A program made the translations under genes and the position numbers. From positions 1 through 46,019 of the forward strand of contig JAFGWC010000058.1 of the NCBI GenBank assembly GCA_016937695.1: a DNA stretch of 46,019 nucleotides, in the 5' to 3' direction. The first letter of the stretch is position 1, and each line of letters begins with the position of its first letter. The notes under the pieces were generated by a model. That model saw nothing but the letters and a program-made list of their open reading frames with translations, searched no databases and had not been told where the DNA came from. This document shows, piece after piece, positions 6,765 through 44,300 of the stretch. Origin of the DNA: Bacteroidales bacterium. GTDB lineage: Bacteria > Bacteroidota > Bacteroidia > Bacteroidales > NBLH01.

Positions 6765-6786
6765 ATATTTTTTACGGTTTATCAGC

Positions 6787-9210: not shown

Positions 9211-9230
9211 TAATTCAATTATAAAATTTT

Positions 9231-9238
9231 TATCTTTG
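9231..9238 (+). promoter_or_regulatory. TAnnTTTG promoter element for the exporter genes
   Basis: TATCTTTG is an exact -7 consensus 19 bases before the ATG of the ABC exporter. It suggests the exporter pair can be transcribed separately from the upstream peptide genes. No obvious -33 element. Confidence 0.6.
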
Positions 9239-9257
9239 CAGCCAACTTAAATTATTA

Positions 9258-11450: not shown

Positions 11451-11462
11451 GTGATTTGAATT

Positions 11463-16493: not shown

Positions 16494-18401
16494 TTATTTA
16501 TTGTTTTTTGATAAAAGACCAATTATTTTAAATTCGATTCTTCGATTTTTTTCTCTGGCTTCAGGAATATCGTTTCCTTTTTCATCAGTTGCTTTTACAA
16601 GAGGTTTTGATTCGCCAAATCCCACAGCAACCAATCTTTTTTTGCCTATTCCTTTGTTTATCAGATAGTTTACTACATTTTGAGCTCGATTTTGAGATAA
16701 TTCGAGATTAAATTTTTTTGAGCCTTTATAGTCGGTATGTGCACTTATTTCTACAATTATATCTTTATAACTTTCCATTATGACTAGTAATGTGCTGTCT
16801 ATTAGTCTTTTGGAACTTTCTGCTAAAGATGCTTTATTGTATTTAAAATAAATATTGTTAAAAACTATCGATTCAGTATTGTCATAATTATTATTGTCTG
16901 ATTTTTTTATTTTATTTTTTTGTTTATCAAGATTAATAATTTGTTGATTTATTGATGTTTTAATATTGTCGAAAATTATATTGCTACTATCTTTTTTTGT
17001 TTCTAAAACGATTATATTTTTTTTCTCAACTTCAGCAATTAAATCAATATTTTTACCATAGTTTTTAAATTCAAAAATATCAAAACAGCAATTTGGGTTT
17101 TTTAAAATCAAACTTTCATCTCTGTTTGAAACGATAAAACCATTTTTTTTATCAGTAAATTTACAAAAATAAATATCGTCGTAGCTTGAATTTATTGGTA
17201 AACCTACATTTATTGATTGTTGCCAATTTACAAAACAGCCTTTTGATTTATATATGTCGAAACCGCCATATCCAGGTCTTCCATTAGAACTAAAGTACAG
17301 GCAAGAGTCTTCATTATCATAAAATGGTGTTAATTCATCAGCAATTGTATTTATATATGTTCCTGCATTCATTGGTTTTTTGTAAATTTGATTTGTTTCA
17401 TCATAAACTGTGTACCAAATATCCATTCCGCCAATTCCATCAGGACGATTTGAAATAAAATACAATACCTCATAATTTTTATTATATGATTTTCCAATTG
17501 CCGGTTGTGTTGAAGTATATTTTTTAAAATTTATATCATCGTTTAGTTTTTTGGGTTTACTCCATTTTCCATTTTTATTTATACTTACATATATTGAGCT
17601 GATTATTTGATTTTTCCAGTTTTTTTTGCCAGAAGTAAAATAAAACCTTTTTTTATCAGTAGAAAAAACACCGTTTGAAGTATTAAAAGTTTTGAAATTA
17701 TAAAATGGTTCTGGTGCATCTTCTCCGCCAAACCATTCATTTTTTTTATTTATCGCAGTGTAAAATCTACTTTCATATTTTATATTTTCTTCGTTTATAT
17801 TAACAGTTGGAATTGTATCTACTTTTACAGATGAATAAATTAATGTAGAATCGTTGTAAATAACTGGTGAAGATTCCATATGGATTTTATTTATTGTAGT
17901 ATTTAAATGTATTATTTCGATATTTTCTTTTTGGATTGGATTTTTTAAGGCAAAATTACAGGCTTCAATTTCTATATGCGACATATAGTTATATATGGTT
18001 TTTGTTTTATTGTTTAATATTTTATCGTTAAAAATTATAAAACAAACTAAAGCAGTATCGTATTTAAGTTCGGTTTTTAAAGATTGAGCATAGTAATATA
18101 AACAGTTTATATATTTTTTTTCATCATATTTATACACTTTATAAAACAAATTTTTCGCTTTTTCATAATTTTTTACTTTAAAATACAAATTGGCTAATTT
18201 ATGCGATATTTTTATATCTGAAGGCTTTCTTTTAGCTAGTTCTGCGTAATATTCTATTTCAGAGTAATAATCATCAACTCTTTGAGCGCTTTTAGCGTAA
18301 CCTTTTAATTGCCAGTTTTTTAGAGTGCTTATTTTATCCGTCTGAGTATATAAAAATTCAAAATTTATTATTAGAATTATACATAAAATTATATTTTTCA
18401 T
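16494..18401 (-). CDS. OmpA-family protein with TPR and PD40 propeller (PorE-like)
   Basis: The 635-residue exported protein has a signal peptide (MKNIILCIILIINFEFLYTQ) and TPR-like helices (about 45-135). A beta-propeller made of PD40-type blades follows (about 165-440; YEVLYFISNRPDGIGGMDIW, CLYFSSNGRPGYGGFDIY), then a low-complexity linker and a C-terminal OmpA peptidoglycan-binding domain (about 525-630; VEISAHTDYKGSKKFNLELS, NRAQNVVNYLINKGI). This layout resembles the T9SS component PorE, but the carboxypeptidase-regulatory domain of PorE is not evident. It is the last gene of an operon with a PorP/SprF-like gene and a type B T9SS protein, so it probably anchors that surface complex to the cell wall. 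Whether it serves the general secretion machine or only this cargo is unknown. Confidence 0.85.
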   Translation of the reverse strand: MKNIILCIILIINFEFLYTQTDKISTLKNWQLKGYAKSAQRVDDYYSEIEYYAELAKRKPSDIKISHKLANLYFKVKNYEKAKNLFYKVYKYDEKKYINCLYYYAQSLKTELKYDTALVCFIIFNDKILNNKTKTIYNYMSHIEIEACNFALKNPIQKENIEIIHLNTTINKIHMESSPVIYNDSTLIYSSVKVDTIPTVNINEENIKYESRFYTAINKKNEWFGGEDAPEPFYNFKTFNTSNGVFSTDKKRFYFTSGKKNWKNQIISSIYVSINKNGKWSKPKKLNDDINFKKYTSTQPAIGKSYNKNYEVLYFISNRPDGIGGMDIWYTVYDETNQIYKKPMNAGTYINTIADELTPFYDNEDSCLYFSSNGRPGYGGFDIYKSKGCFVNWQQSINVGLPINSSYDDIYFCKFTDKKNGFIVSNRDESLILKNPNCCFDIFEFKNYGKNIDLIAEVEKKNIIVLETKKDSSNIIFDNIKTSINQQIINLDKQKNKIKKSDNNNYDNTESIVFNNIYFKYNKASLAESSKRLIDSTLLVIMESYKDIIVEISAHTDYKGSKKFNLELSQNRAQNVVNYLINKGIGKKRLVAVGFGESKPLVKATDEKGNDIPEAREKNRRIEFKIIGLLSKNNK

Positions 18402-18446: not shown

Positions 18447-19454
18447 TTAAAACATTTCACAAGGAATAGTTTTATTTTTCACATTTGTACTTGGCCTAAT
18501 ATATATAATAGATATTTCAAAAGCTGTTTTTGTGTAATCAGTTTTTTGATTCAAAAATTCAAAATCATAACTAATTGAGATATCAAAATTTTTAAAATTA
18601 AAACCCGAACTAACAATTGCAGATCCGATATTTTCGTTGAAACTTTCTCTATAATATCCGCCAATATGAATATTTTTTATTGAATTGTGATTAATAAAAA
18701 TACCAAAATCTGAGCCTAAAAGAATTTCGTTTACTTTATTGTGATATGTGTATAAAAGTTTGGGTTTTACAAACAAATTGTTTGTGAATTTTTTTTCTAA
18801 ATATGAATGTAGAATATATCTGGCAGGCAAGTCATTTTCTTCGCCATAAAAACTTTCGTTTGGTGTATTATAATGAAACATTGAAATTCCTATTTCTGAA
18901 TTTAAATTAGAAGTATTTCTACTCCAAATAAATCCCCAGTTTAAATCTAAATACGATAGATTTGAAGCAGCTAAATTTTCTTGTGAAGCCATATCTGAAT
19001 TAAAACTGCCTGTATTCATATCAAATTGATCAGGGAAACTTAAATAATCTAAAGAATATCTTTTAAAAACATAGCCAACTTGAAATCCCATATGAAGATA
19101 CGATTTTTCTGAGATTTTTAAAAAGTGAGCTATTGAAAAATAAAATTTATCGGCATGTAAAGTATTGTCGGCCGAATTATCGTTAATATAAATAAAACCA
19201 ATGCTGGCCATTTGTTTGTAATAATATATTGGAAAATCAAATGCAAAAGTGCTTGTAACATAAGGATTTGTTAGTTCTTGAATTTGATTTCTGTAATTTG
19301 TTATTACACGCCAGTTGCCAATATAGTTACCTGTATTTGCAGGATTTAAAATAAGTGGTGTATTGTAAAATTTTGAAAAATGAACATCTTGAGCAGTTGC
19401 TAAAAAACTGATATTCAGCAATATAATTATAAATATAGTATATAGTGTTTTCAT
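18447..19454 (-). CDS. PorP/SprF-family type IX secretion outer membrane protein
   Basis: The 335-residue protein opens with a signal peptide ending ATAQ. The family hallmark follows at once (DVHFSKFYNTPLILNPANTG, then NWRVITNYRNQ), then a beta-barrel of alternating strands. PorP/SprF proteins sit in the outer membrane and help attach or export a specific T9SS cargo; members are usually encoded directly behind a large type B (gliding-motility C-terminal) protein, as here (20-base gap). It is therefore the likely dedicated partner of the PKD protein at 19475-23812. The barrel end (FEISIIYIRPSTNVKNKTIPCEMF) carries a short extra tail. Confidence 0.9.
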   Translation of the reverse strand: MKTLYTIFIIILLNISFLATAQDVHFSKFYNTPLILNPANTGNYIGNWRVITNYRNQIQELTNPYVTSTFAFDFPIYYYKQMASIGFIYINDNSADNTLHADKFYFSIAHFLKISEKSYLHMGFQVGYVFKRYSLDYLSFPDQFDMNTGSFNSDMASQENLAASNLSYLDLNWGFIWSRNTSNLNSEIGISMFHYNTPNESFYGEENDLPARYILHSYLEKKFTNNLFVKPKLLYTYHNKVNEILLGSDFGIFINHNSIKNIHIGGYYRESFNENIGSAIVSSGFNFKNFDISISYDFEFLNQKTDYTKTAFEISIIYIRPSTNVKNKTIPCEMF

Positions 19455-19474: not shown

Positions 19475-22400
19475 CTATCTTAAAAGCTTTATATTTCCTG
19501 TTTTTGTAAGGATTTCATCCTCATAAGTTTTTATTTTTGCTGTATATATGTATGTTTCAATGTTTTGCGGATTTCCTTTATAGTTTCCGTCCCAACCAAT
19601 TTCTTTATCTTGAGTTTCAAAAACCATTTCGCCAAACCTGTTGTAAATTTTAAATTCTATTAATTCTTTTATTCCCCAGCCTTTAACAAAAATAAAATCG
19701 TTTATTCCATCATTGTTAGGAGTAAAAGCGGTAGGAACATCAATAGAATATTTCTTCATCACATTTATATTTATATCTTTAGTAATTGTGAAACAGTTAT
19801 TTATATCAGTAATGCTAATTTGATAAACACTAGATTCTAGTGGTTTAACTGTTATATTTGGACAATCTGTACAGCTAATTTCTGATTCTGACCACCACAA
19901 ATATTCAGAAATATCATTTGCAAAAGCATCGAGATTTACTATTTCGCCTATTACAATTGATGTGTCGTTTATATTTATTTTCGGTATTTCTTGTACTTTA
20001 ACATATGTAGATGAATAATTTACACATTTATTACTATCGACAGCCATTAAATTGTATTTTATACTTTTTTCCGGTGTTGATGTTGGATTATAAGAATTTG
20101 TTTTGTCGAGATATAATGCAGGATACCAATAATATTCTTCGGCACCGTTTGCTTCAATTTGTACACTTTGTCCATAACAAATTAAAGTGTCGTTATTAAT
20201 TCCTAAAGTTGGTAAAGGAAAAACTGTAACTTCTTTATTAATTGTATCTGTACATCCGTAATTGTCTGATATAATTAGATTTACATTGTATTTGCCATCA
20301 TTATTATATTTGTTAAACGGATTTTCATTTGTAGAAAAGTTTCCATCGCCAAAAGTCCAATTCCATGAGCTTGCATTTGTTGAATTATCAATAAAATTTT
20401 CTTCGAAAGGCACACAACCCGAAAAATCTTCTTCTTCGCCCCAAATATCAGCAATAACTGTGTTTATATGTATTGTATCTCTTATATATATATCGCATGT
20501 ATGATTATCGTCGCTCATTATAAGAAGAATTGGATGAATATTTCCAAATCTTGAATACAAATGTGTTACTGTATCGCCAACTCCAACTTGCCCATCGTCA
20601 AAAAACCATTGATGATCGTAAACGTTTATTTTATTATCTATAATTAAATTAATGTTAGTGTTTTTACAAATTGTGTCAGGCGCTAATATTTCGGCATATG
20701 GTCCGCCAATTTCTATTAGTTTTTCTTTAGTTGCATTTGCAGAACATCCGTAAGTAGTTACTGCTGTTAATGTTACGTCATAAATTCCGGGTTTTGTATA
20801 AGTATGAACAGGATTTTGTATTTGTGAACTTGATTGATTTTCATCGAATTGCCAAAACCACTGATTTAAATTATCTGCATTTGTTTCATCAGTAAAATGA
20901 ACGATAAAAGGATAACAATTTGAAAATGTATTATCAACTGAAAAATCAGGAACTGTTGCTTTTTGAACGTGAATAAAATTTGATATTATATGTGTTGAAT
21001 CGCAGCCTTTGTTATCAAGTAATCTTAAACTAACATTATAATAACCAGAATCTGCAAAAAAGTGTTTAGGATTTGCACTTGTTGAAAATTCACCATCGCC
21101 GAAATCCCAATAAAAACAGCTTATATTTTCAGATGTTAAACTAAAAAACTCTATTGAATCGCCAACACAAACTGTTTGATTATCAGCCATAAAATCAGGA
21201 TTTGGCTTTAATGCTTCTATATAATTGTATTTTGTGAATTTTGTTGTGCAACCAATAACATCTGTGGCTGTTAAACTTACGTTAAATACTCCGTGTAAAT
21301 TATAATCGTGTGAAGGATTTTCTTCTTCAGATGTTGTATTATCGCCAAACTCCCATTTCCATGTACTTATTGTTGTATCAATCTGGCTTGTGTTTTCAAA
21401 AATTACATTCATTGGTAAACAACCAGAAATATCAGTAGTTTCAAATGCAGGACTAGGTTTAAAAGTTCTAATTTGTTTTATTAATGTGTCTGAACATCCG
21501 CGAAAGTCTTTAACCACTAATTTTACATCAAATTTACCTTTATTATTAAATTTATGTGAAATTTCAGCTATGTTTGTCATTATTTTTGTTCCATCGCCGA
21601 AATCCCAATAATAATTTCCAATTGTTCCATCTTGATTAAATGCATATTCATCTATTGAATTTTCTGAATTAAAATCAACATCTAATCCTGTACAACCAAT
21701 TTCTGCACTATTTTCAAAATAGGATTTTATATTTTTAATAAACACATCACTTGTTGTTGTAAAATTACATCCGTTTGTGTAATTTAATGCTGTTACAGTT
21801 ACAGTATAATCGCCTCTGTCACTGTATAAATGATTAGGTGAAAAACTTGAAGAATCAATCGGACTTCCATCACCGTAATCCCAATAAATTTTATCAGCAT
21901 CAATAGAATTACTTTGTAGTTTTGCAATTAACGGATTTTCGCAATCTGTTGTATAATCGGCGTTAATGTATGGACCTTTTACATAAATTAGTTTTTCTTT
22001 TAATTCGTCATCCGGGCATCCATTTTCGTAAACTAAAAGTTTAACATTCATATAGCCTGTATCGGTATAAATATGAGTTGGATTTTGCTTTTGCGATGTT
22101 TTTTCATCTCCAAATTTCCAATACCATTCGTTTATTAAGTTTTGATCTTCAGAAATATCAGTAAATGAAACAATTGTGGAAGCACAAATTGTATCCGGAA
22201 CATTAATTGTAAAGTCTGCATTTTGTCTGTTGCCTGTTTTTGCTGTTGCGTAATAATTTGATGTACAGCCTATTGCTGTTGTGATTGTTAATGCAACCTG
22301 AAAATTTCCAATTCCGGTAAACTGATGTGAAGGATTAGTGCTGTTTGAAATTCCGCCATCTCCAAATTCCCAATGCCAATCGCTTATATTGTCTTTAGTT

Positions 22401-23812
22401 GTATTATATACGGATTCATCTTTAAATTGAACTGTTAGAGGAACACAACCTTTTATATCGTTTGTTTCAATCCAGTCGTTAGGAGTAAAAGCGGCTCTGG
22501 GTTTTAAAATTGTAAGGCTGTTTTCTCTTATTAACATGTTTTTGCAACCATGTGAGCTTGTAACAATTAAAGTGTCTTTGTAAACTCCTTCAGCAGTATA
22601 TGTTATTACAGGATTTTTTTCGTTAGAAATAGAATCGTTTGCAAATCGCCATTCCCAAGCAATTGCATTTGTAGAATTATCGTAATATTCAACAGTTAAT
22701 GGTATAGAACAACCAAAATCGGTAGAGCTTGTATAATCTGCAATTACTTGTTCTACATTTATTGTATAAGAGAAAGTGTCTGTACATTCTGAATTTGAAT
22801 CAGCAATAAGTTTTACTGTATAATTGCCTGCTTCTGTGTATCTGTGAGTTGGATTTTTAATTGTAGAACTTGTTCCGTCTCCAAAATCCCAAAAATAGGA
22901 AGTTGCTGATGATGAGTTATTTGTAAGTATTGCATATTCCCAAGGACAAATTGTGTCTTTATTTACTTCAAAATCAGCAATTAACTTTGAAATTGAAATT
23001 ATACTTGGTTTTAAAAGAGTATCTGAGCAATTAAATTTATCAAAGGTTATTAATTGAACATCATAAACGCCAAAATTTTCATATAAATTAATTGGGTTTT
23101 TTTCGGCAGATGTATTTCTATCTCCAAAATTCCATGCAAAACTAAGTTCTTCTTCGCCTGTTGATTGATTTGTAAATTGAGTTTGTAATGAGCCTGTGCA
23201 TGATGAAGTGCCTTCAATATCAAATTTAGTTGTTGGCTTGTATGCAGTTATATAATTTTCAACCATTATTAAATTACTGCAATTATTTTTATCTTTTACG
23301 TATAAAGAAATACTATATAAATCTTGATAATCAAAAGATTGAATTGGGTTTTGTTGATTACTGATATATCCGTTTCCAAAATCCCAATGCCAAAAATTTA
23401 TTGTAGTATCACCTTCAATGCTTACATCATTAAACTGAACTGCTAGAGGTGCACATCCTGTTTGCGCTGAGTTTGTATAAAAATGTGCTTCCGGATTTTT
23501 AAATACAGTTATGTAATTTTCTTTAATAGTTGTATCATTTAATCCGCTTTTACTTGCAACAAGCTTAACAGTGTAACTGCCTGTCTGTGTGTATATTCCA
23601 ATAGGATTGTATAAATTAGAAGTTGTTCCGTTTCCTAAATCCCAATAAAAAGTATAGCCATCATTTTGGCTATATTGATTATCAAATATTACTGTAAGAG
23701 GGCTGCATCCATTTACTTTATCGGCGCTAAATCCCTCTTCAGTAGATTGAGAATATATATTAATTGTTAGAAGCCAAAGCAAGCAAATCAGGAATATTTT
23801 TTCTGTCTTCAT
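19475..23812 (-). CDS. Large PKD-repeat surface protein with T9SS type B sorting domain
   Basis: The 1445-residue protein has a signal peptide (MKTEKIFLICLLWLLTINIYSQ). I count 14 PKD-like domains by their 'W-x-F-G-D-G ... N-P-x-H-x-Y' motif (first YWDLGNGTTSN, last WTFGDGNFSTNENP); most carry a conserved Cys before the strand 'G-C-x-P-L'. Two further Ig-like domains lead to a C-terminal gliding-motility-associated (type B) sorting domain (about 1355-1445; PTAFTPNNDGINDFIF, IYNRFGEMVFET, WDGNYKGNPQNIETYIY). It is expected to be secreted by T9SS and displayed as an adhesin or filament in the manner of SprB, using the PorP/SprF-like protein next to it. Its first 53 bases overlap the 3' end of the preceding gene, suggesting coupled translation. 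Ligand unknown. Confidence 0.92.
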   Translation of the reverse strand: MKTEKIFLICLLWLLTINIYSQSTEEGFSADKVNGCSPLTVIFDNQYSQNDGYTFYWDLGNGTTSNLYNPIGIYTQTGSYTVKLVASKSGLNDTTIKENYITVFKNPEAHFYTNSAQTGCAPLAVQFNDVSIEGDTTINFWHWDFGNGYISNQQNPIQSFDYQDLYSISLYVKDKNNCSNLIMVENYITAYKPTTKFDIEGTSSCTGSLQTQFTNQSTGEEELSFAWNFGDRNTSAEKNPINLYENFGVYDVQLITFDKFNCSDTLLKPSIISISKLIADFEVNKDTICPWEYAILTNNSSSATSYFWDFGDGTSSTIKNPTHRYTEAGNYTVKLIADSNSECTDTFSYTINVEQVIADYTSSTDFGCSIPLTVEYYDNSTNAIAWEWRFANDSISNEKNPVITYTAEGVYKDTLIVTSSHGCKNMLIRENSLTILKPRAAFTPNDWIETNDIKGCVPLTVQFKDESVYNTTKDNISDWHWEFGDGGISNSTNPSHQFTGIGNFQVALTITTAIGCTSNYYATAKTGNRQNADFTINVPDTICASTIVSFTDISEDQNLINEWYWKFGDEKTSQKQNPTHIYTDTGYMNVKLLVYENGCPDDELKEKLIYVKGPYINADYTTDCENPLIAKLQSNSIDADKIYWDYGDGSPIDSSSFSPNHLYSDRGDYTVTVTALNYTNGCNFTTTSDVFIKNIKSYFENSAEIGCTGLDVDFNSENSIDEYAFNQDGTIGNYYWDFGDGTKIMTNIAEISHKFNNKGKFDVKLVVKDFRGCSDTLIKQIRTFKPSPAFETTDISGCLPMNVIFENTSQIDTTISTWKWEFGDNTTSEEENPSHDYNLHGVFNVSLTATDVIGCTTKFTKYNYIEALKPNPDFMADNQTVCVGDSIEFFSLTSENISCFYWDFGDGEFSTSANPKHFFADSGYYNVSLRLLDNKGCDSTHIISNFIHVQKATVPDFSVDNTFSNCYPFIVHFTDETNADNLNQWFWQFDENQSSSQIQNPVHTYTKPGIYDVTLTAVTTYGCSANATKEKLIEIGGPYAEILAPDTICKNTNINLIIDNKINVYDHQWFFDDGQVGVGDTVTHLYSRFGNIHPILLIMSDDNHTCDIYIRDTIHINTVIADIWGEEEDFSGCVPFEENFIDNSTNASSWNWTFGDGNFSTNENPFNKYNNDGKYNVNLIISDNYGCTDTINKEVTVFPLPTLGINNDTLICYGQSVQIEANGAEEYYWYPALYLDKTNSYNPTSTPEKSIKYNLMAVDSNKCVNYSSTYVKVQEIPKININDTSIVIGEIVNLDAFANDISEYLWWSESEISCTDCPNITVKPLESSVYQISITDINNCFTITKDININVMKKYSIDVPTAFTPNNDGINDFIFVKGWGIKELIEFKIYNRFGEMVFETQDKEIGWDGNYKGNPQNIETYIYTAKIKTYEDEILTKTGNIKLLR

Positions 23813-24260
23813 AATGGTTGATTTTTTTGTATGCTATTAAAACATTAACATCTCTTTTTATAGTATTGCACTCAAAACAAAGTGCAGGCTGAGTAATTAT
23901 TTCCAGTGTTATTGTTGTGTCATTTTTTACCCTAAAAGTGTTGTATTTGTCAAATTCGTGTGCTGCATTATCATATAATATTTCTGTTTTTTCAGTTTCT
24001 GTTTTCAATTGATATTGAATATTTTTAAAGGCTTTATTTCCACAAACAGAGATATAATATAATCTACCGTTTTTTAATTTTAAGTCAATTTTATAACTAC
24101 TGCCTTTTTTTAGTTTTAATTCTCTTGATTTACTGCTTTTTTGAAAAGTTTTATCGAGTTTTGTGCTATTATTGCTACCAACTATAAAACTTTGAGTAAA
24201 TGAATTTGTAGGAATTAAGCTTGCTACAAATATTGCTGATATGATTATATATTTTTTCAT
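23760..24260 (-). CDS. Small exported protein, first gene of the PKD surface operon
   Basis: The 166-residue protein has a signal peptide (MKKYIIISAIFVASLIPTNSFTQ). The mature part is a predicted beta-sandwich: the alternating pattern LKLKKGSSYKIDLKLKNGRLYYISVCG ends in a Cys, and C-x2-C is found later (PALCFECNTI). It resembles small bacterial PPC-like beta domains in shape, but I do not recognise the family. Its stop lies inside the next gene, a 53-base out-of-frame overlap, so it is probably made together with the PKD protein. It may be a periplasmic or surface accessory of that protein. The operon's promoter and operator lie directly upstream. Confidence 0.7.
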   Translation of the reverse strand: MKKYIIISAIFVASLIPTNSFTQSFIVGSNNSTKLDKTFQKSSKSRELKLKKGSSYKIDLKLKNGRLYYISVCGNKAFKNIQYQLKTETEKTEILYDNAAHEFDKYNTFRVKNDTTITLEIITQPALCFECNTIKRDVNVLIAYKKINHYEDRKNIPDLLALASNN

Positions 24261-24297: not shown

Positions 24298-24305
24298 CAA
24301 AGGTA
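24298..24305 (-). promoter_or_regulatory. TAnnTTTG promoter element for the PKD surface operon
   Basis: On the minus strand TACCTTTG matches the -7 consensus exactly, 37 bases before the start codon at 24260. A small hairpin, GCTCTCTTTCAGAGC on the plus strand (24318-24332), sits just upstream where a -33 element would be. No TTTG is found at the expected -33 spacing, which suits an activator-dependent promoter. Confidence 0.6.
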
Positions 24306-24365
24306 TGACGAATTAACGCTCTCTTTCAGAGCAAAAAAGCCTAATAGTATATGTGCCTAAATTTT

Positions 24366-24396
24366 TAGGTGTTTATACCTATGATGTTAATACCTA
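24366..24396 (-). promoter_or_regulatory. Operator: exact 16-bp near-palindrome plus a tandem variant
   Basis: On the minus strand the site reads TAGGTATAAACACCTA (24366-24381), identical to the site at 26637-26652 and in the same orientation towards its gene. A second copy with 12 of 16 matches overlaps it by one base (24381-24396), giving a 15-bp period. There are 60 bases between the exact site and the -7 box, the same as in the other two promoters of this locus to within one base. This is the position expected for an activator. Confidence 0.65.
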
Positions 24397-24460
24397 AATT
24401 TTGATTTGTTAAATACAGATAATATAAATTCTGATTACTATAGAGTAGATGTTGAAAAAC

Positions 24461-24490
24461 CTCTATGTTAATCATTTGATTAACATAGAG
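24461..24490 (-). terminator. Rho-independent terminator of the receiver operon
   Basis: Perfect 14-base arms (CTCTATGTTAATCA and its complement) flank a 2-base loop. On the minus strand the hairpin begins right after the stop codon at 24491 and is followed by GGTTTTT. Confidence 0.8.
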
Positions 24491-24703
24491 TTACTGTTGA
24501 GTTTGCAGTTTGGATTTTGATGTATGATTAGTTTTTTTTTGTATTTTTTTTAAGCAATGAAAAATTTTAGCGAAAATTTCTAATCTAAACTCATTACCAG
24601 AATCTGCTGCAATAATTGCATTATTTAAAATAATTTGTTTAGCTAATTCAATATTACCATTAAATTTTTTTTGAAGATATTTTGCATAACTTTCAAACGA
24701 CAT
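24491..24703 (-). CDS. Small hypothetical helical protein
   Basis: This is a 70-residue, mostly helical, lysine- and glutamine-rich protein without membrane segment or recognised motif. It starts 3 bases after the stop of the degenerate receiver gene and ends at a terminator, so it is the last cistron of the operon that begins at 26407. The start is MSFESYAKYLQKKFNGNIEL. Its place behind two receivers suggests a role in the same signalling unit, but nothing in the sequence says which. Confidence 0.55.
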   Translation of the reverse strand: MSFESYAKYLQKKFNGNIELAKQIILNNAIIAADSGNEFRLEIFAKIFHCLKKIQKKTNHTSKSKLQTQQ

Positions 24704-24706
24704 TTT

Positions 24707-25069
24707 TTAATTCTTTAAGATTTTTAATATTATTTTTATTAGTGCTTCAAATTCCATTGGAATATGAATAAAGTTATATTTATTTAAAGCTTCATTATCC
24801 AAAAAATATTTTGGTATACCTGTTCTATACAAAAAAATGTAATTTGGCATATAAATATGCTCTAAAATTTCGTAAATATTATAATAGTTTATGTCTGAAA
24901 TTTCTAAATCGTAAATTATTAAATCAGGTTTATATTCAATAGCTTTATTTATAGCATCGCTGTTTGTTTTAGCTGAAATAGTAGAATAACCTTCTATTTG
25001 AAGAAAGCTAACTAACTCTTCCTGCAAAGCATCATAATCTTCGATTATTAAAATTTTTTTAGTTTTCAT
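24707..25069 (-). CDS. Single-domain receiver protein with lost switch residues
   Basis: The 120-residue CheY-like domain keeps the acidic pair (ILIIEDYD, E10-D11) and the phospho-acceptor site (LIIYDLEI, D54). Two other key positions differ. The switch Thr/Ser site reads FLYRTG with Tyr where Thr is expected, and the conserved Lys before Pro is replaced (FIHIPMEF, Ile instead of Lys). Phosphorylation signalling is therefore probably impaired or altered; it could act as a decoy or a protein-binding domain. There is no output domain. It lies 27 bases behind another receiver gene and 3 bases before a small gene in the same operon. Confidence 0.75.
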   Translation of the reverse strand: MKTKKILIIEDYDALQEELVSFLQIEGYSTISAKTNSDAINKAIEYKPDLIIYDLEISDINYYNIYEILEHIYMPNYIFLYRTGIPKYFLDNEALNKYNFIHIPMEFEALIKIILKILKN

Positions 25070-25096
25070 TACAGCCCTTTCTTGTATTATTTATTT

Positions 25097-25768
25097 TTAG
25101 ACATTAATAATTTTACGATCCATATTTATTGATAAAAGATATTCTTCAATCAAAATATTAAGTCTTTCACCATTTTTAAAAATTTTTTCAGCTTTGTTTT
25201 TTATTTCAACATTTGGAATATCTTTTTGGTTATTTTTTATTTTTGTAGATTCTACTAATACTAAACTTAAATATTTGTTTATATCAGAAGGAAGCATTGA
25301 ACTTATATATTTTCTAATTTTCATTAAATCCTCAAATTTCCTTTCAACTTTTTCAAGATTATTTTTCACCGCCAAAAGCAAATCAATTTTCGACACCGGC
25401 TTAACTAAAAAATCGTCAATGCCCAAATTTCCGGAAATTCTAAATTGCTCATTATTAAACATTTCAGACACTATAATAAATGGAATATTTTTTAATACAG
25501 CATTAGATTTTATAGATGTTATAAAATGGAAACTATTACTGGCTGTTGTTATAAGGTCTGATATTATTAAACTGGGTTTTATTTTTTTTAAAGTATCATA
25601 TCCGTCATAACAATTAGATGCTGAGTACACATCGTAATTTTCTGTTTGCAAAATATTACATATTTTATCACAGCTATTTTTATTGTTGTCAACTATTAAT
25701 ATCTTTTTCATTTGACTTGTTTTTTTTGATGATATATTTTTTAGTTGTCTGCATGCATATTTATTCAT
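25097..25768 (-). CDS. Receiver fused to a degenerate histidine-kinase dimerisation domain
   Basis: The 223-residue protein has an intact-looking receiver (residues 20-140; ILIVDNN, phospho-acceptor D71 in IISDLI, K123 in LVKPVS). A helical hairpin of about 80 residues follows. That part aligns with the receiver-kinase protein starting at 45565: RENISNFLPHELRTPL there corresponds to RKYISSMLPSDINKYL here. The phospho-acceptor His (H142 there) is Ser 161 here, and the E, R, T and P of the H-box are also lost. No ATPase domain follows, although the stop precedes the next gene by only 27 bases. It looks like a kinase reduced to a receiver plus a dimerisation stalk. A shorter start at Met 20 (25711) is possible; the longer start is 3 bases after the upstream stop. 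Confidence 0.75.
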   Translation of the reverse strand: MNKYACRQLKNISSKKTSQMKKILIVDNNKNSCDKICNILQTENYDVYSASNCYDGYDTLKKIKPSLIISDLITTASNSFHFITSIKSNAVLKNIPFIIVSEMFNNEQFRISGNLGIDDFLVKPVSKIDLLLAVKNNLEKVERKFEDLMKIRKYISSMLPSDINKYLSLVLVESTKIKNNQKDIPNVEIKNKAEKIFKNGERLNILIEEYLLSINMDRKIINV

Positions 25769-25771
25769 AAA

Positions 25772-26407
25772 TTAAAAATCCCAGTTGATTTTTTTATCTT
25801 TTATTTCAAATTTATATTTTATACCAATACTAGCCATTATTGAAAAAGCATCGTCTTCTCTGCAAAATGAACTTGTACACCTTAAATCATCTCCCTGTAC
25901 TGCACTAAAATATCCTCCAAAACCTATACTGGTATCAAAAAACAACTTTCTACTTATCTGTGTTTGAAGTCCTAAGCCTAAATAATTTTCAAATGTTCTA
26001 AATGTTTCTAATTCATCAATTGTATTGTAATCTTCCGGATGATAAATTTTATTTAATCTGGAACTTAATGCGCTATTAATATGATAGTTAAATGTATAAT
26101 GAAAATATAGTTTTGTGTATAATGCACTATTAATTAGATATTTGTATTTTAAGTTTATACCTGAAAAGCTAAGATATTCGTCTTGAATTATTACACCTGC
26201 ATCTATTTCATTATTATCAAATTTTAAAAGAATATTAAATGTACTTAATATTCCGTGGCCGCTGCAACTAGCAATAACGTTAGTGCTTATACCAAGCTCT
26301 TTTTTAATTTTGGGTTTACATTGTGAAATTGTATTTTCAAATAAAAACAGTTGAAATAAAACAACAATTACCAAAATTCTCCATTTTTTTATATCTATTG
26401 TTTTCAT
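25772..26407 (-). CDS. Outer membrane beta-barrel-like protein
   Basis: The 211-residue protein has an N-terminal export signal (KKWRILVIVVLFQLFLFENTISQ). The rest is built from amphipathic strands with aromatic girdles (YLSFSGINLKYKYL, LYTKLYFHYTFNY, ENYLGLGLQTQISRKLFFDTSIGFGGYF) and ends in a strand-like ASIGIKYKFEIKDKKINWDF, as in small outer membrane barrels. It contains a Cys pair (RCTSSFC). It starts an operon with two receiver proteins, an unusual company for a barrel; it could be an outer membrane sensor or scaffold connected with the giant surface protein encoded divergently. No specific family is recognised. Confidence 0.7.
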   Translation of the reverse strand: MKTIDIKKWRILVIVVLFQLFLFENTISQCKPKIKKELGISTNVIASCSGHGILSTFNILLKFDNNEIDAGVIIQDEYLSFSGINLKYKYLINSALYTKLYFHYTFNYHINSALSSRLNKIYHPEDYNTIDELETFRTFENYLGLGLQTQISRKLFFDTSIGFGGYFSAVQGDDLRCTSSFCREDDAFSIMASIGIKYKFEIKDKKINWDF

Positions 26408-26445
26408 GACTATAAATTTTTAAGATTTTATTTTTCCTGATATAG

Positions 26446-26453
26446 CAAAATTA
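26446..26453 (-). promoter_or_regulatory. TAnnTTTG promoter element for the barrel/receiver operon
   Basis: On the minus strand TAATTTTG matches the -7 consensus exactly, 38 bases before the start codon at 26407, almost the same leader distance as in the PKD operon. Confidence 0.55.
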
Positions 26454-26513
26454 CTTCAATAGTATGCCTGTTTCTTAGAGTTTTAAAACCTATATTTAAA
26501 ATTTAAATCCAAA

Positions 26514-26529
26514 TAGGTATTTTTCACAA
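26514..26529 (-). promoter_or_regulatory. Operator-like half site upstream of the barrel/receiver operon
   Basis: The plus strand reads TAGGTATTTTTCACAA. One half (TAGGTAT) matches the 16-bp operator of this locus, the other does not. The distance to the -7 box is 60 bases, equal to that of the PKD operon. An opposed AACCTATA half lies nearby (around 26488). Confidence 0.45.
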
Positions 26530-26636
26530 ATATTTATTTAATCTTAAAATAATAATATTTAGTCTAAAAAAAATATTTGTGTAAATATCTGATTATAAAC
26601 TAATTGCTGATTGAGATTTTGATATTATTTATTAAT

Positions 26637-26652
26637 TAGGTATAAACACCTA
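26637..26652 (+). promoter_or_regulatory. Operator: exact 16-bp near-palindrome before the giant surface gene
   Basis: TAGGTATAAACACCTA is identical, in the orientation of its gene, to the site before the PKD surface operon (24366-24381). There are 59 bases between it and the TAAATTTG box at 26712 and 98 bases to the ATG. Confidence 0.65.
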
Positions 26653-26669
26653 ATTAATAATTTAAAATT

Positions 26670-26683
26670 GTAATGCGCATTAC
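26670..26683. promoter_or_regulatory. Perfect 14-bp palindrome in the giant gene's promoter
   Basis: GTAATGCGCATTAC is a perfect palindrome with a GC-rich core in an otherwise AT-only region, 28 bases upstream of the -7 box. It may be a second regulator site; no copy was noticed elsewhere in the window. Confidence 0.4.
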
Positions 26684-26711
26684 TGCGCTATTTTAAGCTT
26701 TCCTATATATG

Positions 26712-26719
26712 TAAATTTG
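26712..26719 (+). promoter_or_regulatory. TAnnTTTG promoter element for the giant surface gene
   Basis: TAAATTTG matches the -7 consensus exactly and would give a leader of about 25 bases. No TTTG at the -33 position. Confidence 0.6.
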
Positions 26720-36719: not shown

Positions 36720-36912
36720 ATTTGTAAAAATAAACTTTCTCCTAAAAATACCTGATAGGATTAATTAATTTAAAACTAAATAGATAATAATCTCATATTC
36801 TGACAATTAACAAGTTTGTGTTTTGAAATTATATAAATCAAAATCAATTTTTAATTATTTAATCTTAAATTTTATAAGTAAAAATACTTCTTTTTTATTT
36901 TTTTTTGAAGAA

Positions 36913-36948
36913 TAGGTGTAAATACTCATTTATAGTAGTTTTTACCTA
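36913..36948 (+). promoter_or_regulatory. Two operator-like sites upstream of the PAS/kinase genes
   Basis: TAGGTGTAAATACTCA (36913-36928, 12 of 16 matches to the operator of this locus) and TAGTAGTTTTTACCTA (36933-36948, 13 of 16 in the other orientation) lie 20 bp apart in the 390-base gap before the gene at 37035. The rest of this gap (36720-36912) is AT-rich DNA in which I see no gene. Confidence 0.5.
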
Positions 36949-36950
36949 CT

Positions 36951-36958
36951 TAAATTTG
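36951..36958 (+). promoter_or_regulatory. Possible TAnnTTTG element upstream of the PAS protein gene
   Basis: TAAATTTG is an exact consensus match, but it lies 2 bases after the second operator-like site and 76 bases before the ATG. If used, the operator would overlap the -33 region, unlike the other promoters of the set. Confidence 0.35.
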
Positions 36959-37034: not shown

Positions 37035-38795
37035 ATGAATACTAATGTAACTGAGTTTTTCAAAAACATTATGCTTCAAAAAAATAATTTTAATGAAGAA
37101 GCTGATTATCTACAAAAAATTTTTTCTTTAATCGAAGAGCTGATATTTATTTTCGATGAAAATCAAAATTTTATTTTTGTTAATTCTCCTAATAACGAAA
37201 ATCTTTTGTTTGAATATGAAAATTTTATTGGCAAAAAACATGGGGATATAATGCCTGCCGATATTAATGAAAAGTTTGAAAAATCTTTTGAATTAGTGAA
37301 ACTAGGAAAATCCAGTAGTTATGAATATTGTATTAAAGGTGCCGATAAATTAAATTACTATCGTGCTAATATTACTCCTTTTTTTGAAAATGATAAATTT
37401 ATTGGTTGTATTTCGCTTATTTTGGATGTTACTGATATTAAGGCAGTTAATAATAAGTTAAAAGAAAGCGAAGAAAAATACCGAACTATTTTTGATAGCA
37501 GCGCAGATGCAATATTTATTCATCCGTTTATTAAAGAAAATCTTGAATTTTTTTTAGATGTTAACGAAACTGCATGTATAATGCTTGGATATACAAAAGA
37601 AGAACTTTTGAATATTTCGCCTTTAAAAATAATTTCACCTAAAGAATTAGAAGGACAAAAAAGAGAATATCTAAAGGAAAAATTACTTGCTGAAAACAAA
37701 TTAAATTTTAATGCTACTTACATAAAAAAAGACGGAGAAGAAATTACTGTTGAATTATGCTTAAATATTATCGACTACAAAGGACAAAAAGCAATAATGA
37801 CTGTTGCCAGAGATTTATCTGAAAATAAGAGAGTTACACAAGAGCTTAAATTACAGAAACAAAAATTTGAAGATGTAATTGAGCAATCTATCGATGGTTT
37901 TTCTTTAATTGATGAACAAGGAAAAGTAATTATCTGGAACAAAAGTCTTGAAGAATTAACTGGAATTAGCTCAACAGAAGCTTTAAATTGTAATAGTTGG
38001 GAGCTGCAATATAAAATGAGCCCAAAAAACATACAAACAGAAGAATATAAAAAGCAGCTTGAAATTTCGATAAAAGATTATCTAAAGAAAGGAAAATCTC
38101 CGTGGGATAAGAAAATTATGTCTAGACAATATGATCATCCAAATGGCGAAATAAAATATATTGAAGGCTATAATTATTCAATAAAAACAGAGAAAGCTTA
38201 TATGCTTGCATCAATTTCTAAAGATGTGACAATAAGAGAATTAGCTAAAAAAACATTAAAATTAAATGAAATAAAATTTCGCTCGATATTAGAAGAAATT
38301 CAATTAATTACTGTTATGCTTGATAAAGATGCAAATATAATTTTCGCAAATAAATATTTTCTTGAATTAACCGGCTGGACTTCACAAGAAATATTAAACA
38401 AAAACTGGTTCGAATTTTTTATTCCAAACGAAATTAAAGAAAGCGTATTTCAAGTTTTTAAAACTACAATAGAAAAAAATGAATATCCTTCAAAATTTGA
38501 AAATGAAATAACCTGCAAATCAGGCGAAATAAGAATAATTAGTTGGAATAATATTTCAAACATCAATAAAATTGATGAAAACATTACAATGATAAGTATT
38601 GGAGAAGATATAAGTATTCAAAAAAAGTATCAAAAAGAGCTTGAAAAACTTGTAAAAAAACGAACAAAAAAGTTAAAATCCAAAAATAAAAAGCTAAAAA
38701 AATATAACGAACTTTTTATTGGTAGAGAGTTTAGAATCAAGGAGTTAAAAGATGAAATAGTTCTATTAAAAGAAAAATTGGAAATAAAAGATTGA
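37035..38795 (+). CDS. Four-PAS sensor protein without kinase domain
   Basis: The 586-residue soluble protein contains four PAS domains in a row (about 20-135, 145-265, 275-405, 410-525), each ending in a 'D-(V/I/L)-(T/S)' linker such as LDVTDIKAV, ARDLSENKR, SKDVTIREL and GEDISIQKK. A lysine-rich coiled coil follows, with LFIGREFRIKELKDEI at the end, a segment that often links PAS sensors to kinases. Here it ends at a stop, so there is no HisKA or ATPase domain. A partner kinase, probably the next gene (38 bases downstream), would have to carry the signal. It is the first gene of the signalling cluster and has operator-like sites upstream. Ligands cannot be read from the sequence. Confidence 0.85.
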   Translation: MNTNVTEFFKNIMLQKNNFNEEADYLQKIFSLIEELIFIFDENQNFIFVNSPNNENLLFEYENFIGKKHGDIMPADINEKFEKSFELVKLGKSSSYEYCIKGADKLNYYRANITPFFENDKFIGCISLILDVTDIKAVNNKLKESEEKYRTIFDSSADAIFIHPFIKENLEFFLDVNETACIMLGYTKEELLNISPLKIISPKELEGQKREYLKEKLLAENKLNFNATYIKKDGEEITVELCLNIIDYKGQKAIMTVARDLSENKRVTQELKLQKQKFEDVIEQSIDGFSLIDEQGKVIIWNKSLEELTGISSTEALNCNSWELQYKMSPKNIQTEEYKKQLEISIKDYLKKGKSPWDKKIMSRQYDHPNGEIKYIEGYNYSIKTEKAYMLASISKDVTIRELAKKTLKLNEIKFRSILEEIQLITVMLDKDANIIFANKYFLELTGWTSQEILNKNWFEFFIPNEIKESVFQVFKTTIEKNEYPSKFENEITCKSGEIRIISWNNISNINKIDENITMISIGEDISIQKKYQKELEKLVKKRTKKLKSKNKKLKKYNELFIGREFRIKELKDEIVLLKEKLEIKD

Positions 38796-38833: not shown

Positions 38834-41083
38834 ATGACAACAGTTCTACTAATTTCAATAATTTTTCAAATTATTGCAGTATTTATAGCATTTAGGCTTA
38901 TTAAAATAACTAAAAGCTACAAAACATGGATTTTTATTGCATTGGCTATTTTGTTAATGGCGATAAGAAGAATGCTAACTTTTATTAATGTAATATTTGA
39001 AACAAAATTTGAAATTGGCTTTATACTTCCTGAATATATTGCTCTTACAACATCAATTTTGGTAGTTGCCGGATTACTTCTAATTATTCCACTATTTAAA
39101 TCATTTAAAGAAAAAGAAATAATTAACGATAGAAATGAAGCAGAATTAAAAAGCATATTACTGGCTGCACCTGTTGGAATTGGAGTAGCTATTAATAGAA
39201 AACTAATAAACGTTAATGAAAGATTTTGCAAGATGCTCGGATATTCAGAAAATGAACTTTTAGGTAAAGACTCTCTTATTGTATATCCGTCAATTGCTGA
39301 TTATGAATATGTTGGTAAAGAAAAATACAGACAGATTTCGGAAAAAGGAACAGGACGTGTTGAAACAAAATTGAAAAAAAAAGATGGTGTAATTATTAAT
39401 GTAATTATAAGCTCTACACCATTGAATGTAAATGACTTAACAGCAGGAATAGTCTTTACGGCACAGGATATTACAGATCGTAAGAAAAGCGAAGATGAAC
39501 TTAATCAATCTCATCAACTTATGAATTATATAATTGCCCACAATCCGAACTCAATAGCCGTACTTGATGAAAAATTAAATTACATATATGTAAGTCAAAG
39601 ATTTATAGCTGATTACAAAACCAGCAAAGAAAAAATTATTGGAAAAAATTATTACGAAATATTTCCTGAAACACCTAAAAAGTGGAAAGAAATTCATCAA
39701 AAATCCTTAAAAGGAGGAGTTTCAAGAGCAGATAATGATTCTTTTTTAAGAGAAGATGGTTTAATTGATTGGATTAAATGGGAATGTAGACCTTGGTATA
39801 AATCAGACAAAAGCATTGGTGGAATAATAATATATACCGAAGTAATTACAGAAAGAATTGAAGCTGAAAAAGAAATAAAAAAGCTGTCATTAGCTGTTCA
39901 ACAAAGTTCTGTAATAGTTATTATTACTGATATAGAAGGCAATATTGAATTTGTAAACGATAAATTCACTAAAGTAACCGGATACCAGATCAATGAAGTA
40001 ATTGGCAAAAATCCCAGAATTCTAAAATCAGGAAATACAAGCAAAGAGGATTATAAAAAACTGTGGGATACAATTACATCAGGAAATGCTTGGCGCGGTG
40101 AATTTTCAAATAAAAAGAAAAACGAAGAATTATATTACGAATCGGCAAGTATTTTTCCTTTATTGGATGAAAACGGGAATATTATAAACTATGTAGCTAT
40201 AAAAGAAGATGTTACAGAACAAAAAGAGACAGACAATGAATTAAACAAATATCGTAATAAACTTGAAATACTTATTAAAGAGCGCACAAAAGAAATTGAA
40301 GCAAAATCAAAAAAGATAAAAGAATCGCAAACTGCTATGCGATATCTTTTAGAAGACATAAACGAAACTCAAATTAAATTGGAAAAAGCAAATATCGATT
40401 TAGTTGAAGCTAATAACGATTTAAAATCTTTTTCTTACTCTGTTTCTCACGATTTAAAAGCTCCTTTGCGTGCAATCGAAGGATTTGCCAAAGAAATTAA
40501 TAACTCTTATAAAAACAATCTTAACAAAGATACTTTAGAATATTTTAATCTAATAATCCAGAATGTTGATAAAATGAATATTATTATCGATAAACTTTTA
40601 ATTTTATCGAGACTTGGAAGAAAAGAATTGCAATTTACACAAATTGATATGAATAAATTAATTGCAGAACAATGGGAAAATATAAAACAATCAAGCAATA
40701 ATGTAAAATCCGAATTGTTTATAAGCAATTTGGAAAATTGCTTTGGCGATAAGGATTTGGTTAATCAGGTGATATTCAATCTTTTATCTAATGCTGTTAA
40801 GTTTAGCAAAAACAAAGAAAATCCAAAAATTGAAATTACTTGTAAAAAAGGAAAATCTAAAAATACTTTTTGTGTTAAAGATAACGGAGTTGGTTTTGAT
40901 ATGAAATATTACGATAAATTATTCGCCATTTTTCAACGATTACACAAACAAAATGATTTTGAAGGAACAGGAATTGGTTTATCAATTGTAAAAAAAATTA
41001 TTATTAAACACAATGGTAAAATTTGGGCAGAATCTGAACCAAACAAAGGAGCTGCTTTTTACTTTAGTTTACCGGCAAAATAA
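38834..41083 (+). CDS. Membrane PAS histidine kinase
   Basis: The 749-residue kinase has an N-terminal membrane part of three helices (about 2-21, 31-49, 62-86) with almost no periplasmic portion. Three PAS domains follow (about 100-220, 225-345, 350-470), then a coiled coil. A HisKA domain carries SVSHDLKAPLRAIEGF (phospho-acceptor H539), and an HATPase domain has the N-box VIFNLLSNAVKF, the G1 box VKDNGVGFD and GTGIGLSIVKKI. The 'SHDLKAPLRAI' H-box is of the type found in phytochrome-like kinases. There is no receiver, so it presumably phosphorylates a separate receiver protein, for example one of those encoded in this window. PAS3 is closely similar to PAS5 of the next kinase (shared NPRILKSG and NKKKN motifs), indicating duplication. 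Confidence 0.9.
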   Translation: MTTVLLISIIFQIIAVFIAFRLIKITKSYKTWIFIALAILLMAIRRMLTFINVIFETKFEIGFILPEYIALTTSILVVAGLLLIIPLFKSFKEKEIINDRNEAELKSILLAAPVGIGVAINRKLINVNERFCKMLGYSENELLGKDSLIVYPSIADYEYVGKEKYRQISEKGTGRVETKLKKKDGVIINVIISSTPLNVNDLTAGIVFTAQDITDRKKSEDELNQSHQLMNYIIAHNPNSIAVLDEKLNYIYVSQRFIADYKTSKEKIIGKNYYEIFPETPKKWKEIHQKSLKGGVSRADNDSFLREDGLIDWIKWECRPWYKSDKSIGGIIIYTEVITERIEAEKEIKKLSLAVQQSSVIVIITDIEGNIEFVNDKFTKVTGYQINEVIGKNPRILKSGNTSKEDYKKLWDTITSGNAWRGEFSNKKKNEELYYESASIFPLLDENGNIINYVAIKEDVTEQKETDNELNKYRNKLEILIKERTKEIEAKSKKIKESQTAMRYLLEDINETQIKLEKANIDLVEANNDLKSFSYSVSHDLKAPLRAIEGFAKEINNSYKNNLNKDTLEYFNLIIQNVDKMNIIIDKLLILSRLGRKELQFTQIDMNKLIAEQWENIKQSSNNVKSELFISNLENCFGDKDLVNQVIFNLLSNAVKFSKNKENPKIEITCKKGKSKNTFCVKDNGVGFDMKYYDKLFAIFQRLHKQNDFEGTGIGLSIVKKIIIKHNGKIWAESEPNKGAAFYFSLPAK

Positions 41084-41300: not shown

Positions 41301-44300
41301 ATGAAAAACTTGATGAAATTTTTAATGCTTGAAGATAATTTTTCTGATGCAAAATTAATAGAAATCGAACTTAAAAAGTCGAAAATAAACTTTAAACTTA
41401 AGTATGTTGAAAACCGCGACGAATTTATTGACGGTATTAATAAATTTAAGCCCGATTTTATTTTGTCCGATTATACACTTCCGCAGTTTACCGGAATAGA
41501 AGCACTTGGAATAGCTTTAGATTTATGTCCCGAAATCCCTTTTGTTATTGTTACAGGAACTTTAAACGAAGAAATTGCTGTTGAATGTATTAAACTTGGA
41601 GCTTGGGATTATGTTTTAAAAGGAAATTTAATTCGTTTAATTCCTGCTATCGAAAATTCTATTAAATTAAAAAAACAAAAAGATGGAAATGCAATATCTC
41701 AACAAAAACTTATAGAATCTGAAGCAAGACTAAAAGATTTATACGATAATGCACCCGATATGTTTTTATCTATAAATCCAGAAACAAAAGAAATAATAGA
41801 GTGTAATAAAAGAGTATTATCAAAATTAGGATACAAAAGAGACGAATTTGTTGGTAAAAATTTATATGATTTTTATTCTGAAGAAAGTGTCGATTTTACA
41901 GAAAAAGTTTTATATCCCAGATTTTTTAAAACAGGATTTTTAAAAAACGAAGATTTACAAGTTATAAGAAAAGACGGCAGCGTTTTAGATGTATTATTAA
42001 GTTCAACAGCTGTTTACGATAAAAAAGGAAAAATCAAATACAGTCGCTCAATATGGCGAGATGTTACCGAAAACAAGTTTTTACAACAAGAATTATTAAA
42101 AAGCAATACCATTATTAACAGAAGTCCTTTTGTCGTTGTTTCTTGGAAAAATGATGAAAAAAGGTCTATTGATTTCATTACTTCAAATGTTAGAAATCTT
42201 TTAGGATATACAGATGAGGAATTTTTAAGCGATAAAATACAATATTCAAAAATAATTCATCCAGAAGATGCTGAAATGGTTGAAAATGAAGTTATTACTG
42301 CATCTAACAACAAAAAAAAAGTAAGCTTTTCTCACAAGCCTTACAGATTAATATGTAAAAATAAAAATGTAATTTGGATTGATGATAAAACACATATTCT
42401 AAGAAATCATAAAGGCGAAATAACTCATTACCAGGGTATTATAAGCGATATAACCAACCAAGTAATTGCAGAACAACTTTTACTTACTCAAAAAAATGAA
42501 TATCTTTCTCTTTACGAAGAATATCGAGTTCAAAATGAAAATTTAAAATTATCTAACGAACAAATTATTGCAGCCGAAACCAAATATCGCTCTATTTTAG
42601 ATAATAATTCTGATGCAATAATAATCAGCTCAACAGATTATAAACTTAGGTATAGAAATCCTGCTGCAAGCAAAAATATAAAACAAAACGGAGATTCGGA
42701 ATATTGCTATATTGCCCTTTTTGGATTTAAAGAAAAATGCCCTTGGTGCGTTTTTGATACACTCAAAAAAAATGAAGTTATTGAAAAAGAAATAATACAT
42801 CCGACAACAAACAAGTATTATATTACAACATTTTCTTATTTGAAAAACACAGACGATACATATTCCTTAATGTCTGTTTATAAAGATATTACAGAGCTGA
42901 GAAAAACAGAAGAAGAAAAAATAAAACTATTAGCTAGCTTAGAAGCAAGTTTTAACGAAATTTACTTGTTTGAAATAAATAATTTTAGATTTGAATATAT
43001 TAATGATGCTTCAGTAAAAAATCTTGGATATACAAGAGATGAAATTTTAAAAATGACTGTTCTTGATATTAATACTGAATTAAACGAAATTGAATTTAAA
43101 AAAATTATTAATCCATTATTTAGCGGCAAAAAAGGAAAAATTACTTTTCAAACAAGGCATAAAAGAAAAGATAATACATTTTATCCTCTTGAAATTCAAT
43201 TACAACTGATAAAACAGAACGATAAAAAATATTTTTTAGCAGTTGGAAACGATATTTCCGAAAAATTAAAAGAAGAAGCCGAAATAAGGAAATTAACAAC
43301 AGCAATAGAACAAAGCCCTGTAGCAATTGTAATTACCGACTATAATGGTGATATTGAGTTTGTTAACCCAAAATTTATTGATATTACAGGCTATACTCTT
43401 AACGAAGTTCTAGGGCAAAATCCTCGTATTTTAAAATCGGGATTTCACCCAAAAGAATTTTACGTAAACCTTTGGGATACAATAAGCTCAGGCGAAACTT
43501 GGAACGGTGCTTTAAAAAACAAAAAGAAAAACGGCGAGTTTTATTGGGAAGACGTTACAATTGGTCCAGTTACAGATGATAAAGGAATAATTACAAATTA
43601 TATAGCCTTAAAAGAAGACATTACAAAAAGAAAAGAAATTGAAGACAATTTAATTATAAAATCGCAACAAATAGAAAACATATTTAACAATACAAAAGAT
43701 ATTTTTTATTCTATTGATGTTGATACAAATAAAGTTCTGCAAATATCGCCTGCATGTATTGATATTTTTGGTTACAAACCACAAGATTTTTACAGCAATT
43801 CAAATTTAATTACAGAAATTATTCATCCCGAAGATAAATATTTTGCTAAAATTAACAGAGCCGATTTTAAAAAAGGAATGCCGATAATTAACAATTACAG
43901 AATAATAAAACCTGATGGCGAAATAAGATGGATAACAAATAAAATGAGTCCTCAGTTTGATGATAAAAACAATTTACACGGCGTAAGTGCCTTTATATCA
44001 GACACTACCGAAAATACGATTTTACAAAATGCTTTGCAAGAATCTTTTAATTTAAACCAAAAAATAATTAAAACAGCCGAATTAGGAGTTGGGATATACA
44101 ATAAAAACGGAGATTGTATTTCGGCAAACGATAATATTATAAAAATAGTAGGCGGAACAACAAGTGAAGTGCTTATGCAAAACTTTAGAAAACTGCCATC
44201 TTGGGAAAAAAGCGGATTATTAAAAGATGCCGAAAAATGCCTTGAAACAAAGAAAGAAGTTAAAAGAATTTTGCGTTTAGCTTCTTCATTTGGTAAAGAA

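Follow-up and report, generated by a model that had tools for sequence, protein, structure and literature searches.

The window, the stretch of 46,019 nucleotides analyzed here, is the entire contig C92 of a 3.95-Mb assembly in 159 contigs from an uncultured Bacteroidales bacterium. It contains an operon for a small secreted protein, a PKD-repeat protein, PorP/SprF and an OmpA-family protein, an operon for a putative outer-membrane barrel and 2 receiver proteins, a gene for a giant surface protein, and an operon for PAS proteins and histidine kinases that runs into the contig end (Table 1). The original prediction, made from the DNA letters alone, had assigned the first of these to type B cargo of the type IX secretion system (T9SS), which is borne out by the CHU_C signal of the PKD protein, and had rightly described the receivers as lacking a DNA-binding domain. 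The type A sorting tail that it had attributed to the giant protein, however, has no Pfam match. Elsewhere in the window (5733-12767), genes for a cysteine-rich 343-aa protein, an outer-membrane barrel, a C39-peptidase ABC exporter, and an HlyD protein follow each other, an arrangement that suggests peptide maturation and export.

Table 1. Operators, -7 boxes, and genes of the surface and signalling locus in the window.
Feature	Position	Strand	Remarks
OmpA-family protein	16494..18401	-	Pfam
PorP/SprF	18447..19454	-	Pfam
PKD-repeat protein with CHU_C (T9SS type B) signal	19475..23812	-	Pfam
Small secreted protein, 166 aa, first gene of type B operon	23760..24260	-	Orthologs head PKD operon in G006, G178, G291, G208
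-7 box TACCTTTG, type B operon	24298..24305	-	
Proximal operator TAGGCTTTTTTGCTCT, type B operon	24328..24343	-	-38 to -23 from box
Distal operator TAGGTATAAACACCTA, small-ORF/PKD/PorP-SprF/OmpA (type B) operon	24366..24381	-	Gap 60; orthologous promoters 58-60 in G006, G178, G291, G208
Receiver protein without DNA-binding domain	24707..25069	-	Pfam
Receiver protein without DNA-binding domain	25097..25768	-	Pfam
Putative outer-membrane barrel, first gene of receiver operon	25772..26407	-	Ortholog in G006
-7 box TAATTTTG, barrel/receiver operon	26446..26453	-	
Proximal operator TAGGTTTTAAAACTCT, barrel/receiver operon	26477..26492	-	
Degenerate distal operator TTGTGAAAAATACCTA (half-site), barrel/receiver operon	26514..26529	-	Gap 60; weak site at 59 in G006 ortholog
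Distal operator TAGGTATAAACACCTA, giant surface gene	26637..26652	+	Gap 59
Proximal operator position TGCGCATTACTGCGCT, giant surface gene	26674..26689	+	Weak match; keeps G-35, C-26, C-24
-7 box TAAATTTG, giant surface gene	26712..26719	+	
Giant surface protein, 3297 aa	26751..36644	+	No Pfam match
Weak distal operator TAAGTAAAAATACTTC, kinase operon	36875..36890	+	Gap 60; same layout in G004 at 58 and 22
Proximal operator TAGGTGTAAATACTCA, kinase operon	36913..36928	+	Gap 22
-7 box TAAATTTG, kinase operon	36951..36958	+	
PAS-repeat protein	37035..38795	+	Pfam
PAS histidine kinase	38834..41083	+	Pfam
Receiver-PAS histidine kinase	41301..45539	+	Pfam
Receiver-kinase gene, N-terminal part, cut by contig end	45565..46017	+	Other half opens C135

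As originally reported, the 16-mer TAGGTATAAACACCTA occurs exactly twice in the window, with gaps of 60 bp (type B operon) and 59 bp (giant gene) to a TAnnTTTG box, and neither these 2 promoters nor that of the barrel/receiver operon has a TTTG at the canonical -33 spacing. These are also the only exact copies in the 3.95 Mb of the genome. With up to 3 mismatches, the window holds 5 sites against 0.46 expected. Since the site is nearly palindromic, its shared orientation relative to the 2 genes, which had been stressed before, carries little weight. The core TAGGTN6ACCTA was found 3 times genome-wide, the third copy lying on contig C150, 60 bp from GACCTTTA and before a gene for a 115-aa secreted protein (L044:348-818) to which no function is assigned. 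In the orthologous promoter of G006, the operator lies 59 bp from GACCTTTG, and from these 2 sequences GAnnTTTG may serve as a variant of the box. The regulon of this genome is small and mostly local, with the full site in the window and before one promoter on C150.

The barrel/receiver promoter had been proposed as a third member. Its half-site ATACCTA does lie at 60, on the box-proximal side, but the full 16 bases are degenerate, scoring 5.6 versus 22.1 for the exact 16-mer on a matrix whose training set excluded this genome. A fourth promoter, that of the kinase operon, has a weak distal site at gap 60 with a score of 8.5. The supposed spacing preference of the half-site did not extend across the genome, where half-site and box showed no enrichment at 59-60 (12/100 versus 6.5 expected, 3 of the 12 belonging to the window locus); a genome-wide half-site regulon was rejected here, as the spacing histogram is flat outside the window locus. 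The barrel/receiver promoter therefore rests on comparative evidence; for the sites at 36875 and 26514, both weak, position and orthologs lend a credibility that their letters alone do not.

Allowing 1 mismatch, we found the 16-mer in 4/6 genus-mates, but in just 2 of the 53 other members of the order that were searched. Within the genus, the genes behind the sites encode receivers, surface lipoproteins, and other secreted proteins; the gap is 59 or 60 for most of them and 45/46 in 3 cases. Contig C145 of G006 carries the orthologous locus, with sites at 59, 59, and 60 in the small-ORF/PKD, barrel, and surface promoters; the barrel site is weak and its box is one letter off. The same cluster occurs in G178, which belongs to another family; there, the small-ORF/PKD operon has its site at 60, and a surface gene whose product carries a T9SS sorting tail has one at 59. 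A 16-bp dyad of 7-2-7 layout, TAGGTRT-WW-AYACCTA, was found in many promoters, and the genes behind operators at 58-60 in the genus and in other families are the small-ORF/PKD/PorP-SprF/OmpA T9SS operon, surface genes, receivers, and kinases. The comparison of orthologous promoters that the original prediction had called for thus finds the operator again at 58-60 before orthologous or like genes, within the genus and beyond, and argues that it is functional.

When 25 promoters were right-aligned on the box, a degenerate second dyad, TRRGTN6RCYCT, appeared at -38 to -23 from it, occupying the place of the absent -33 element. This proximal dyad was not a criterion in selecting the promoters. G-35 is found in 23/25, T-34 in 22/25, and C-26 in 23/25; the 3 letters occur together in 20/25 promoters, versus 17 of the 385 boxes in these loci, members of the 25-promoter set included. 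All 4 promoters in the window have a proximal dyad, the weakest being that of the giant gene. Across 393 genomes, the proximal pattern combined with the box gave approximately 84 matches versus approximately 43 for a reversed control. Promoters picked by the proximal dyad alone have distal dyads at 58-59 or 66-69, and precede surface genes, a NarL-type regulator, and a PorP/SprF-like gene. The near-rigid spacing originally noted therefore holds for the distal operator here (58-60), but elsewhere this operator also falls into classes at 45-48 and 66-69 bp, and the strict register belongs to the proximal operator, which had gone unnoticed. The distal spacings of approximately 46, 59, and 68 differ from one to the next by roughly one helical turn, which, for the few sites involved, may reflect a face-of-helix requirement.

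TAnnTTTG, or a variant differing in 1 or 2 letters, is present in 25/25 promoters, so that none lacks the sigma-A -7 box, as promoters of a SigP-type ECF sigma factor would. In Flavobacterium psychrophilum, the box was mapped at -12 to -5 (PMC9723704). If transcription starts at the same distance here, the center of the proximal dyad, 30.5 bp before the box, would lie at approximately -42.5, with approximately -41.5 as the class II reference, and that of the distal dyad at about -80.

While the original prediction left the regulator unnamed, a candidate can now be put forward: a 364-aa response regulator with a receiver, a PAS, and a LuxR/GerE domain, encoded on the 5.6-kb contig C135 (C135:759-1853; Pfam Response_reg, E 3.9e-24; GerE, E 7.3e-18). 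Its helix-turn-helix matches VraR and NarL-family structures. A receiver-kinase of a genus-mate matches the right end of C92 with residues 1-151 (71%) and the left end of C135 with residues 196-359 (51%), in both cases far better than anything else does; C92 (45565-46017) and C135:1-492 form complementary halves of one gene. C135 therefore most likely continues C92, and the regulator gene would start approximately 0.9 kb past the right end of the window, as part of the operon starting at 37035. A chance overlap of the contig ends was dismissed, as they share no sequence; the join rests on the complementary gene halves.

Supporting this assignment, long site-bearing contigs of relatives also encode a receiver-PAS-GerE protein of 356-370 aa. 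Regulator and sites are on the same contigs in G004, G006, and G178, and the regulator gene adjoins the PKD operon in G291, G208, and G353. An operator precedes the regulator's own operon at gaps of 58 (G291, G208, G004) and 59 (G353), and the kinase operon of the window, the predicted regulator operon, has operators at 60 and 22. We also selected 9 loci by regulator homology alone, without using the motif, and scanned them with a matrix not built from them. Of 18 operator/box pairs, 9 were at 58-60 versus 0.49 expected, while column-permuted decoys gave a mean of 0.33 and a maximum of 4; in G291 and G208, the operator lies at 60 before the small-ORF/PKD operon. In G175 (family f66), the small-ORF and regulator operons each have twin dyads 36 bp apart, with the variant boxes TTTATTTG and GATATTTG. 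Against the assignment, the genomes of family f54 have the regulator, and no clear operator was seen in the stretches examined. Conversely, G001 and G005 have operators at gaps 59 and 45, and their assemblies, 90-92% complete, yielded no ortholog of the receiver-PAS-LuxR protein at E 1e-30, suggesting that related regulators may share the dyad.

Taken together, these are probably activator-dependent promoters with twin operators under the receiver-PAS-LuxR regulator of C135. This regulator would bind the strong distal dyad TAGGTRTWWAYACCTA, centered at approximately -80, and the weaker proximal dyad TRRGTN6RCYCT, centered at approximately -42.5. As the proximal dyad sits where the -33 element should be, the bound regulator may substitute for that element, recruiting sigma-A RNA polymerase to TAnnTTTG. 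Once phosphorylated, with the PAS kinases of its own operon as the probable donors, it would jointly switch on the T9SS type B operon, the gene for the giant surface protein, and both the barrel/receiver and the kinase/regulator operons. What we infer in this scheme is that the regulator binds, that it activates rather than represses, that it is phosphorylated, and where transcription starts; both operators, their register and conservation, the domains of the regulator, its co-localization with the sites, and the operators before its operon in relatives are read from the sequences themselves. The poor proximal element of the giant gene and the number of full operators in this genome, only 3, also speak against the scheme. 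The original idea of one activator for surface and signalling genes finds good support in orthologous promoters, both from the genus and from families f70, f104, f66, and f57; in this genome, the regulon is small and mostly local.

Other readers of the operators were considered. The most serious, though unlikely, is a 209-aa NarL-type regulator, encoded here on contig C66, acting instead of or alongside the receiver-PAS-LuxR protein. In G001, G005, and G006, its gene is immediately followed by an operator with a gap of 45/46, and G002 and G003 lack both its ortholog and the operator. The operators of G001 and G005, where the receiver-PAS-LuxR protein was missing, would also be explained, and an unrelated NarL-type gene (L072) is itself preceded by twin dyads. 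However, G291, G208, and G168 have operators at 58-60 and no ortholog of this protein, their NarL-type proteins being merely 37-44% identical, which led us to reject it as the sole regulator. Moreover, no operator is near its gene in G000, G004, and G178, and the surface loci co-localize with the receiver-PAS-LuxR gene instead.

The geometry of TAGGT-N6-ACCTA, two 5-bp half-sites separated by 6 bp, is also that of CRP-type sites. Positions near -42 and upstream would equally suit an unlinked regulator from a different family that recognizes such a 5-6-5 dyad, for example one of the CRP/FNR type. We consider such a reader quite improbable, as the conserved cluster yielded just one DNA-binding protein, of the GerE type, with no CRP/FNR-type gene among those scanned by Pfam around the sites, and NarL-type genes repeatedly carry the dyad in their own promoters. 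Just as improbable is that the dyads are repressor sites: a site overlapping -33 could hinder polymerase, but the promoters have no -33 TTTG at canonical spacing, and the strong site lies far upstream at phased positions, as expected of an activator. Chance or a recent local duplication, which the mere 2 exact copies 2.3 kb apart might suggest, is hardly credible, since their flanks differ and sites at 58-60 with a second dyad in register recur in other species and families.

The arrangement favored here, with the receiver-PAS-LuxR protein as activator, resembles that of Escherichia coli ogt, which NarL activates from sites at -44.5 and -77.5 (PMC7419079); NarL binds 16-bp 7-2-7 repeats such as TACCCCTAAAGGGGTA (PMC4549865). 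Both systems would combine a GerE-type response regulator and 16-bp inverted repeats, one near the -35 region and one approximately 3 turns upstream. They differ in the half-site (TAGGTRT here versus TACYYMT-like for NarL), in the separation of the dyads (36-38 bp versus 33), in the Bacteroidota promoter without a -33 element, in the PAS domain between receiver and helix-turn-helix of the candidate, and in the targets, which here are T9SS surface and sensor genes. Two-component control tied to type IX secretion is known within the Bacteroidota from PorXY-SigP of Porphyromonas gingivalis (PMC4800418, PMC5005315). That system acts through an ECF sigma factor, whereas the promoters described here combine the sigma-A box TAnnTTTG with a dedicated dyad, and the candidate response regulator brings a GerE DNA-binding domain of its own. 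The pairing of a CHU_C PKD protein with PorP/SprF likewise matches the type B CTD protein and PorP-like partner of a study concerned with anchorage rather than regulation (PMC9143113). Our literature search returned no shared operator or regulator for type B/PorP operons and no LuxR-type operator in Bacteroidales, and the GerE consensus had no match either.

Little is established about the joint switching of T9SS surface proteins and sensors beyond PorXY-SigP. With a named candidate, a two-part operator whose register is exact, and several families with orthologous promoters, the proposal is directly testable. If true, it would describe an activator-dependent Bacteroidota promoter layout in which a response regulator replaces the -33 element. 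We more tentatively suggest a Bacteroidota-wide class, for which the odds fall somewhat short of even, in which LuxR/NarL-type regulators use a proximal dyad in place of -33 and a distal dyad at 45-48, 58-60, or 66-69, mainly at T9SS surface genes and kinases or receivers.

In GTDB genomes, distal dyads with a box 45-75 bp away peak at 45-50. Outside Rikenellaceae, many promoters of this 45-50 class also have the proximal dyad, often GTATTTATAC. Within Rikenellaceae it is mostly absent; we therefore rejected that peak as part of the same system, and these promoters are probably under another regulator. At L076-L146 (Rikenellaceae/Alistipes), TAGGTATAAATACCTA lies 45-51 bp from TAnnTTTG without a proximal dyad. 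It precedes metabolic genes, among them hdrC-like, nspC-like, and SPT-like ones, and is a separate, apparently undescribed operator, probably of another regulator. Finally, at L039:7485-9008, L041, and L157:8115-10007, from 3 genus-mates, the operator at gap 45/46 lies between the 209-aa NarL-type gene and a receiver gene that heads a group of ferredoxin/NADH-dehydrogenase-like genes.
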